Shown here: piece after piece, positions 2,553-33,392 of the stretch
Layout of the letters: the number at the start of each line of letters is the position of its first letter
How positions within the stretch are numbered: the first letter of the stretch is position 1
Origin: Bacillota bacterium
GTDB taxonomy: Bacteria; Bacillota; Bacilli; Alicyclobacillales; SLC66
Length of the DNA: 33,392 bases
Assembly: GCA_021805735.1 (NCBI GenBank)
Contig: JAJZEE010000036.1
Location: forward strand, 1-33,392
Direction: 5' to 3'
Notes under the pieces: model-generated
Database searches by the model: none
What the model saw: only the letters and a program-made list of their open reading frames with translations
Told to the model about the DNA's origin: nothing
Made by a program: the position numbers and the translations under genes

Positions 2553-2800
2553 GTGTCGGTTAGTGTCAGTAACTTTTGCCGATCCGCGAAGCAGGACCGT
2601 CAAGCCGTGCTAGCTCACAAGGGTTTTTCGAGAAGTGTCAGTGCTGTCAGTGGTATCAGTTATAGAAGGCGTGTAGAGAAGTGGCACTTGTGGCACCTCG
2701 TGGCACTGACTTTCATCATTTCACATGACGGCCCTCTAAAGCCGCGCTGGACAAGGGTTGCGTGACTCGCGGCACCTCATGGCACTCGTGGCACTTATAG
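2553..2800 (+). repeat. TGTCAG and TGGCAC iteron cluster
   Basis: TGTCAG-type elements lie near 2553-2570 and 2635-2660. They are followed by two triplets of GGCAC: 2683, 2692, 2702 and then 2771, 2781, 2790. Within each triplet the spacing is 9-10 bases, about one helical turn. Further TGTCAGT copies occur near 3038-3065. No gene is supported between 2498 and 3216. Candidates are a replication origin, an integrase or excisionase arm region, or an operator array. Confidence 0.6.
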
Positions 2801-2825
2801 AACCTGTCTGGCGCGTGCATTCGCA

Positions 2826-2844
2826 ATGGAGTTATTTCGTACTT
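2826..2844 (+). repeat. Box A, right copy
   Basis: A 19-base exact copy of 1813-1831. Its last six bases form the left arm of the inverted repeat at 2838-2873, so in this copy box A has been built into a palindrome. Confidence 0.75.
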
Positions 2845-2873
2845 AATTCGCAAGGTGTGCGAAATTAAGTACG
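2838..2873. promoter_or_regulatory. Inverted repeat within box A
   Basis: GTACTTAATTCGC (2839-2851) and GCGAAATTAAGTAC (2859-2872) are near-perfect inverted arms around a seven-base centre. This is a plausible dimer operator or a cruciform in the iteron-rich DNA upstream of the integrase. Confidence 0.55.
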
Positions 2874-2916
2874 CCCCACAAACCCTTATGCCGCGCGGCT
2901 TCGCAGGCTCTATAGG

Positions 2917-2949
2917 GGGGTTATTTCGTTAATTCGTTTATTTCGTACC
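2917..2949 (+). repeat. Box B, right copy
   Basis: GGGGTTATTTCGTTAATTCG continues as TTTATTTCGTACC. It matches 1879-1913 in the three TTCGT elements and their spacing, with differences in the bases between them. This pattern is expected when the repeated elements are under selection and the spacers are not. Confidence 0.7.
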
Positions 2950-3164
2950 ATAGACAGAATAGAGCCGCAGTCCGCTACTCGTCAGTGTGCTTACCGGATA
3001 GCCACCGTACCGCGCGGGACGTGGGTTAAACGCTTCTTGTCAGTACTTGTCGTACCTGTCAGTAGGTATGTGCGTAGCAATCTCTTGCTTAACCACTGTT
3101 AGTCGGAGTATTGTGCGTATGCCCCCTGCTTATAAAGCAGAGGGCCGTGCATTTAGCCTTGGTA

Positions 3165-3177
3165 TATCAACGTTTTT
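3165..3177 (+). repeat. 13-bp direct repeat, copy 1 (left of integrase)
   Basis: TATCAACGTTTTT occurs here and again at 4530-4542, directly against the tRNA-Pro 3' end. The pair flanks the integrase gene and may be integrase binding sites. Confidence 0.6.
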
Positions 3178-3185
3178 AAGTCTAT

Positions 3186-3204
3186 GGTCTAGTCTTGGTC
3201 TAGT
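3186..3204 (-). promoter_or_regulatory. Two GGTCTAGT sites upstream of the integrase
   Basis: GGTCTAGT occurs at 3186-3193 and 3197-3204, 11 bases apart. The reverse complement, ACTAGACC, occurs twice downstream of the integrase at 4454-4461 and 4466-4473. Paired, oppositely oriented sites flanking the integrase resemble arm-type binding sites, and the upstream pair could also let the integrase repress itself. Confidence 0.55.
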
Positions 3205-3270
3205 ATTTATGCTACTATGGACACAAGAGACAAAGCAACATACATGCACACACAAAGGAGCGACCTGCTC

Positions 3271-10894: not shown

Positions 10895-10939
10895 TGGTGA
10901 GCCATGATGGACTCGAACCATCGACACCCTGATTAAAAG
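10895..10939 (-). repeat. Right attachment core (3' half of tRNA-Lys)
   Basis: This is the direct-repeat partner of 4798-4842. Similarity stops exactly after the base following the anticodon-loop TTAAAA, a common crossover boundary for tRNA-specific integrases. Confidence 0.75.
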
Positions 10940-10970
10940 TCAGGTGCTCTACCAACTGAGCTAATGGCTC
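10895..10970 (-). tRNA. tRNA-Lys (anticodon UUU), intact
   Basis: A complete cloverleaf with acceptor GAGCCAT/ATGGCTC, anticodon stem CCTGA/TCAGG and loop CTTTTAA, T-arm GATGG-TTCGAGT-CCATC, and an encoded CCA. Its first 45 plus-strand bases (10895-10939) are the inferred right attachment core of the island. Confidence 0.96.
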
Positions 10971-10974
10971 AAAG

Positions 10975-11049
10975 TGGCTGGGGAGGTAGGGATCGAACCT
11001 ACGAATGACGGAGTCAAAGTCCGTTGCCTTACCACTTGGCGACTCCCCA
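10975..11049 (-). tRNA. tRNA-Gln (anticodon UUG)
   Basis: Acceptor TGGGGAG/CTCCCCA, anticodon stem ACGGA/TCCGT with loop CTTTGAC, T-loop TTCGATC, discriminator G and encoded CCA. It lies four bases upstream of tRNA-Lys in the transcript. Confidence 0.95.
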
Positions 11050-11053
11050 ACTA

Positions 11054-11130
11054 TGGGGTGAGCGATGGGGTTCGAACCCACGAGTGCCGGAGCCACAATC
11101 CGGTGCGTTAACCACTTCGCCACGCCCACC
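11054..11130 (-). tRNA. tRNA-His (anticodon GUG)
   Basis: Acceptor GTGGGCG with the additional 5' G typical of tRNA-His, pairing with the discriminator C. Anticodon stem CCGGA/TCCGG, loop TTGTGGC. CCA is encoded. Confidence 0.95.
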
Positions 11131-11155
11131 ATGACAATCATAAAAATAAAAAACC

Positions 11156-11231
11156 TGGCAGGGGTGGCAGGATTCGAACCCACGACATGCGGTTTTGGAG
11201 ACCGCCGTTCTACCAGCTGAACTACACCCCT
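11156..11231 (-). tRNA. tRNA-Trp (anticodon CCA)
   Basis: Acceptor AGGGGTG/CACCCCT, anticodon stem GCGGT/ACCGC with loop CTCCAAA, T-loop TTCGAAT, discriminator G and encoded CCA. It is the first gene of the cluster. Confidence 0.95.
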
Positions 11232-22766: not shown

Positions 22767-23009
22767 TTACTGTTGCGGAACTTCCATGTCGAAACGGACG
22801 TTTCGGCTTGGTGTAAACGTAGAAACCGCATGCTTGTAGATCAGTTGCTGCTTTCCCTCCGATTCGATCACGACGGTAAAGTTGTCAAACCCCTTAACCA
22901 ATCCACGGATTTGGAATCCGTTGATCAGGTACACGACTACCGGGATGTTGTCCTTGCGAATCTGATTCAGGAAATTATCCTGAATATTGATCGTTTTGCC
23001 TGTGGTCAC
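22767..23009 (-). CDS. hfq: RNA chaperone Hfq
   Basis: An Sm-like ring-forming RNA chaperone that helps small RNAs meet their targets. The Sm1 motif [20 protein letters not shown] and the Sm2 motif [10 protein letters not shown] are both present, with [14 protein letters not shown] between them. GTG 23007-23009 is chosen because GGGGGG lies seven bases upstream and it gives the family's usual N-terminus ([13 protein letters not shown]); the TTG 18 bases further upstream has no good site. 80 residues, within the normal range. It follows miaA on the same strand, an order known from many bacteria. Confidence 0.95.
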
Positions 23010-23099
23010 TCGTTTGCCCCCCGCCAAAATCCCATCTTTATACCTCTACAGCATATGCTCGGCGGCAGAGTGCTGTCCGCGTCGAACAGTTTCCACTCC

Positions 23100-30167: not shown

Positions 30168-30195
30168 AAATAGAGGGAGCTGCGCTCCCTCCATG
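30168..30195 (-). terminator. Terminator of the candidate small RNA
   Basis: GAGGGAGC (30173-30180) and GCTCCCTC (30184-30191) form a perfect 8-bp stem with a TGC loop. On the minus strand TATTTAT follows. It separates the small RNA from the miaB promoter. Confidence 0.75.
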
Positions 30196-30413
30196 ATAAA
30201 TCGTATCACGCCTCACGGGTTTATACACTGGAATCACCCGCATGTGCCGTAAGGAACGCGTGTTTTCGAACCCGCTCTCGCAGGTGGGCGACTCCGCGTT
30301 TCGATCTTTGACGTCCCTTCGTTTGCGAGGGCTTGCCAGCACGAAACGGATATCTGTCACCCTTAACACACATACGGTTCAAAACAAATGTCCGCATACG
30401 AGCACTGCAGGTG
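30170..30413 (-). ncRNA. Candidate structured small RNA, 6S-like
   Basis: A complete transcription unit without a credible reading frame. A promoter lies at 30420-30448 and a terminator at 30168-30195, giving about 240 nt. Positions 30361-30377 pair with 30238-30254 at 15 of 17 positions (two wobble pairs, one 2x2 internal loop), closing 106 bases. Inside, 30342-30348 pairs with 30297-30303 (CGTTTCG/CGAAACG), capped by a CCCTC/GAAGGG-type hairpin. The 3' side of the interior can form a small TCGC/GCGA hairpin. An outer TCGTAT/ATACGA pairing is possible. Long closing helix, central bubble and terminal stem recall 6S RNA, which sequesters RNA polymerase. The identification is tentative. Confidence 0.55.
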
Positions 30414-30419
30414 AAGACT

Positions 30420-30448
30420 ATGATAGCAGGAGAGCCATTCGGTTGCAA
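30420..30448 (-). promoter_or_regulatory. Promoter of the candidate small RNA
   Basis: On the minus strand TTGCAA (30443-30448), 17-base spacer, TATCAT (30420-30425). The predicted transcription start is near 30413, well upstream of the first helix. Confidence 0.7.
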
Positions 30449-32686: not shown

Positions 32687-33392
32687 TCATCGCCTCCTTA
32701 TGGCCTGTTCAAAGTAACCCGCCTGGCCGCCGCGCCCCTTTGCAGAAGACGCGCGCGTACTGGTCACCGGAATTTGCCATGCAGCTCGAAGATCGACCGT
32801 TTCATCCCATACCTCGTCGCTCCGGATCATCGAGAATAGCAGATCAATCGCCGATTTGTAATCTTCGTAGGTGCGGGTGGCCTTTACGTGAGCATACACT
32901 TCCTCTGACAGAGGCAGTAAATAGTCACGATCACTCTTGTAGAACGCTCGCACACGATCGGAACTGTGTAAGGGCAAATATGGCAGGGTCTCATGATGCT
33001 GCGCCACGATGTACGCCAGTGCCAAAGCGCCCAGCGCGATCGTGGGGTCGAGCACAAAACTGGCTGGCGTTCTATACTCAAATCCACCGTACGATTTGTG
33101 CCGGACATCGCCCAGAAATCCATACTTGGGACGCCTGCGCGCCGCTGTCAACGGATCTTCGATCAGCATCAGAGGCAACCCCACGTACACGTCAAGCAGA
33201 CTCACAATTCTCCCGGTAAACGGAACACCGCTAAAATGGATGTGCCCTCCGATAGGAAAGCGTTCAAACGGAGCGCTTCCTGCTACCCACTTGGGGTTCA
33301 TTCGTTTCGCCAACTGACCGGCTTCCCGCAAAGTCACTTTAATGTTGGCGCACAGTTGTTCCGGGGTGAGCGCCGGTTTCGGCCGAAGTTCC
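32687..33392 (-). CDS. COOH.NH2 ligase type 2-like protein, N-terminus outside the window
   Basis: At least 235 residues; the frame enters from the right edge. The segment NPKWVAGSAPFERFPIGGHI, HFSGVPFTGRIVSLLDVYVG and GFLGDVRHKSYGGFEYRTPA matches the conserved core of the glutamine-synthetase-like COOH.NH2 ligases, first described in phage phiEco32-type genomes and found beside YheC/YheD in Bacillales. The GGHIHFSG and GGFEYRT motifs hold the metal and substrate residues. The family is predicted to form amide or peptide-like bonds. Its stop lies one base from the start of the next gene. Three predicted amide-bond-forming enzymes in a row suggest one pathway. Confidence 0.85.
   Translation of the reverse strand, partial: ELRPKPALTPEQLCANIKVTLREAGQLAKRMNPKWVAGSAPFERFPIGGHIHFSGVPFTGRIVSLLDVYVGLPLMLIEDPLTAARRRPKYGFLGDVRHKSYGGFEYRTPASFVLDPTIALGALALAYIVAQHHETLPYLPLHSSDRVRAFYKSDRDYLLPLSEEVYAHVKATRTYEDYKSAIDLLFSMIRSDEVWDETVDLRAAWQIPVTSTRASSAKGRGGQAGYFEQAIRRR

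Follow-up and report, generated by a model that had tools for sequence, protein, structure and literature searches.

Identity of the RNA

The question raised by this locus is what is encoded on the minus strand between the YheC gene and miaB in the 33,392-nucleotide stretch of DNA analysed here, which is referred to as the window. The first-pass annotation had described an independent small RNA with an overall shape compatible with that of 6S RNA and had proposed an Rfam covariance search as a check. When this search was run, the 6S/SsrS RNA model RF00013 matched positions 30416–30231 (−) over its full length (model positions 1–187). The score was 82.6 bits (E-value of 4.8e-15 for the whole window), which is far above the curated gathering score of 46.4. 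The matched region is almost certainly a 6S RNA gene (ssrS) of the bsrA type, with its own sigma-A promoter, a hairpin terminator before miaB, and a capacity to hold and release polymerase that is attributed to it by homology. The identity, promoter, fold, and conservation of the gene were established computationally, and the gene is probably an ordinary and functional one.

6S RNA, a small RNA present in almost all bacteria, mimics an open promoter and holds RNA polymerase when growth stops. The present gene is new only as a further instance of this textbook RNA, the kind being already known, and the only question that it adds concerns a minor variation in how the pRNA starts. Its identification adds to the window a gene that reading frames would not reveal. 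No similar phage record was found, and no paper in the literature searched named both “6S RNA” and “Alicyclobacillus”.

Promoter, transcript start, and terminator

The promoter and terminator scans alone were at chance level, and the case for a 6S gene rests on homology. Specifically, the promoter scan gave two hits in the region, compared with 1.3 expected. The promoter at 30448–30420 (−) consists of a −35 element, TTGCAA (30448–30443), a 17-bp spacer, and an extended −10 element, TGC-TATCAT (30428–30420), both identified by the promoter scan together with the family comparison. All 15 copies from the family of the window have a −35/−10 pair with exactly the same spacing, in which the −35 element begins with TTG[CT] and the −10-like element is an extended TA..AT (TTGGTAAGAT in L113). 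The promoter with 17-bp spacing reported in the first-pass annotation is thus present, and its spacing is kept throughout the family. Judging from the distance to the −10 element, the transcript probably starts near 30413–30412.

A terminator-like hairpin of 11 pairs is located at 30193–30171 (−), with the core GAGGGAGC-GCA-GCUCCCUC and a weak U-tract (UAUUUAUG) reaching 30165. The hairpin was not listed by the terminator scan. Of the terminator described earlier, the hairpin is present, but the U-tract amounts to a weak tail. A clear hairpin with a T-rich tail lies within approximately 100 bases downstream of the 6S RNA in 11 of the 15 family copies. In the window and in its nearest relative, the hairpin is present but its tail is weak, and in L115 and L034 no terminator is evident between the 6S RNA and miaB.

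A block resembling an extended −10 element (TGATACGAT; 30208–30200 (−)) was also observed after the 6S body and ahead of the terminator hairpin. The nearest relative has an identical block, and several Alicyclobacillus-type 6S copies are preceded by a similar one; a −35 element was not seen at the usual spacing.

Distribution and gene neighbourhood

The source of the window is a relative of Alicyclobacillus and Ferroacidibacillus. In the search of relatives, 57 of 61 genomes, including that of the window, had a 6S RNA match. The four genomes without an Rfam match were G013, G010, G015, and G002. The 6S gene of G013, missed by the stricter Rfam pass, was recovered by a covariance model of the family. 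G010 and G015 are incomplete assemblies, and G002 was still negative when the family model was used. The nearest named MAG locus, L031, which is possibly from G002, starts 124 bases before miaB, and the negative result for G002 could plausibly be due to a contig break.

The 6S gene adjoins YheC in all 13 Rfam-positive family relatives that were mapped, and miaB follows it in 11. In L034, the 6S gene is located just upstream of miaB, and the YheC-6S-miaB arrangement is shared by a named relative, Ferroacidibacillus organovorans (L036; Bacilli, Alicyclobacillaceae). No 6S RNA was detected in the retrieved flanks of seven Alicyclobacillus miaB loci (L038–L044), and genomes of the same order as Alicyclobacillus carry 6S RNA at other places. 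The position of the gene indicates a family-level trait among the relatives of Alicyclobacillus.

Most family members have the stretch immediately before miaB and in the same orientation, so that it could be regarded as a 5′ leader (cis-regulatory element) of miaB and not as a separate small RNA, and the two copies that lack an evident terminator would fit such a leader. This explanation is nevertheless very unlikely. As the first-pass annotation had stated, miaB has its own promoter further on (TTGCCG-17-TACAAT, 30114–30086 (−)), and we found it to be identical in the nearest relative. Moreover, a terminator-like hairpin separates the 6S RNA from miaB in most copies, Alicyclobacillus keeps the RNA elsewhere, away from miaB, and in L112 and L123 the sequence read beyond the RNA yielded no miaB. 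The 6S match also spans the whole length of the RNA.

Several other features of the neighbourhood were recorded. In L112 (G003), a 142-aa open reading frame follows the 6S gene at 2781–3209, and no miaB was found in the 3.4 kb read downstream. The window also encodes, at 32687–33337 (−), a COOH.NH2 ligase-type 2 protein (PF14395, phage phiEco32-like). Two YheC/YheD-like ATP-grasp proteins are encoded directly downstream of it, and this order is conserved across the family. Four clustered tRNA genes are located at 10898–11231 (−). Hfq is encoded in the same cluster, as pointed out previously (hfq, 22767–23027), and is merely part of the usual mutS-mutL-miaA-hfq cluster, with no bearing on the identity of the RNA; 6S RNA acts on RNA polymerase.

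Predicted pRNA template and proposed mechanism

In the proposed mechanism, the 6S RNA folds into an elongated rod whose central bubble resembles an open promoter, and in this form it would sequester sigma-A RNA polymerase once growth ceases. When nucleotides return, the polymerase would use the 5′ strand of the bubble as the template for a pRNA of approximately 14 nt, and this synthesis would melt helix P2. The strands of the bubble would then re-pair, forming a collapse helix and the 3′ bubble hairpin, and the polymerase would be freed. The binding of polymerase, the synthesis of pRNA, and the subsequent release are proposed here by homology to the 6S-1 RNA of Bacillus subtilis (PMC8876501, PMC12005410).

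The predicted pRNA template comprises the 5′ central bubble and a strand of P2 at 30385–30372 (−). It was located via a published pRNA motif, in which GG stands at pRNA positions 4/5 or 5/6 and a highly conserved adenine directly precedes the pRNA start (PMC8414754), and its start nucleotide is predicted to within one base. The predicted product, which has the sequence of the plus strand, is 5′-AUACGGUUCAAAAC, with GG at positions 5/6. All 15 family copies have G, not adenine, at the base directly before the pRNA start. Eight of them have CCUUAC as the template, which corresponds to a pRNA of GUAAGG. Across the family, the bases at pRNA positions +1 and +4 co-vary in two states (A..C or G..A), the template at 30372–30375 (−) being GTAT or TTAC. 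This co-change may reflect simple phylogeny. It is conceivable, but rather unlikely, that the pRNA start has changed in this family such that ATP would be the first nucleotide in about half of the copies and GTP in the other half, which might alter the nucleotide pool that triggers release.

In folding predictions, blocking the template raised the expected count of collapse-helix pairs from 3.4 to 6.8. Predicted collapse-helix pairing increased in every family copy under this condition, strongly in about half of them. The collapse helix of the window is predicted in a shifted register and not in the register of its relatives, among which its strength varies.

The loss of the adenine before the pRNA start and the weak terminator tail might suggest a decayed or non-functional 6S copy. 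Such decay is highly improbable here, as this is the only 6S copy found in the genome (3.76 Mb), and both the promoter and the bubble sequence are kept in all family members.

Fold and covariation

The 6S unit was predicted to fold at −99.6 kcal/mol (z = −4.55), and none of 200 shuffled sequences was equally stable. The Rfam alignment and covariation place the closing helix P1 at 30415–30398 and 30250–30233 (−) and the terminal (inner) arm at 30362–30286 (−). The closing helix of the first-pass annotation is therefore present, with 16 of 17 pairs being standard in the Rfam alignment and not 15 as had been counted, and the inner helix and the small 3′-side hairpin noted there are both present as well. 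The 3′ strand of P2 (30272–30262 (−)) pairs with 30385–30376. It has bases in common with the 3′ central-bubble hairpin, ACCUGC-GAGA-GCGGGU (30285–30270 (−)).

Compensatory changes back the long closing stem, the central bubble, and the terminal arm. The alignment of 42 homologues used for this analysis was fitted to the closing stem and terminal arm and leans towards them. Within these two elements, 262 pair cells were doubly changed, compared with 99.4 in shuffles, and 24 of 40 pairs were changed on both sides in some sequence. The covariation score was 0.378 (0.142 when shuffled), and 84.0% of cells were paired, as against 69.5% in shuffles and 39–47% when the partners were slid by 1–3 columns. 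Compensatory change in P2, which lies outside the model, was still above that in shuffles. The 3′ bubble hairpin was paired in 98.0% of cells and is nearly invariant, so covariation is silent on it. The lack of a covariance match and of compensatory changes had been named in advance as evidence against the small RNA; compensatory change in relatives proved to be extensive.

The family covariance model, built from 14 family copies only and with no pairs set inside the central bubble, recovered all 27 of the more distant copies searched, plus L034. Alicyclobacillus and outgroup copies scored 45–78 bits with this family-only model. A minus-strand match of this model on L115 (24.6 bits), which represents the same stem read in antisense, was excluded from the covariation count.

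The first-pass statement that the region has no reading frame is not literally correct, as the 6S region is crossed by mechanical open reading frames on the minus strand (75 and 102 aa) and on the plus strand (104 aa). The statement does hold for conserved frames, since no frame remains open throughout the relatives. Comparison of frames across relatives makes a small protein encoded by these frames extremely unlikely: the crossing frames have no Pfam match, the copies of relatives (183–187 nt) have their frames broken by stops, and substitutions preserve pairing.

Comparison with known systems

The 6S RNA of the window resembles B. subtilis 6S-1 RNA (bsrA, RF00013) in being a rod with a central bubble and a 3′ bubble hairpin, with a P2 helix that is predicted to be copied as pRNA and a predicted collapse helix (PMC8876501, PMC8414754). 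GG at pRNA positions 5/6 is likewise shared with 6S-1 and with the pRNAs of lactic acid bacteria (PMC8414754). In contrast to 6S-1, the gene is located between YheC and miaB, the predicted pRNA starts with A and is preceded by G instead of A, and the template is one base longer. In addition, one copy was found here, while B. subtilis has two.

The Alicyclobacillus-type 6S RNAs, which belong to the same order, were found by the same models and have the same helices. They differ in their genomic places and in their pRNA template (GAGCCAAC or GTTCCAAC), and their genomes sometimes contain two 6S copies each, unlike that of the window. As in lactic acid bacteria, the neighbourhood of the 6S gene is conserved at the family level with one copy per genome (PMC8414754), although the gene adjoins rarA/uspA in lactic acid bacteria (PMC8414754) and lies between YheC and miaB here.
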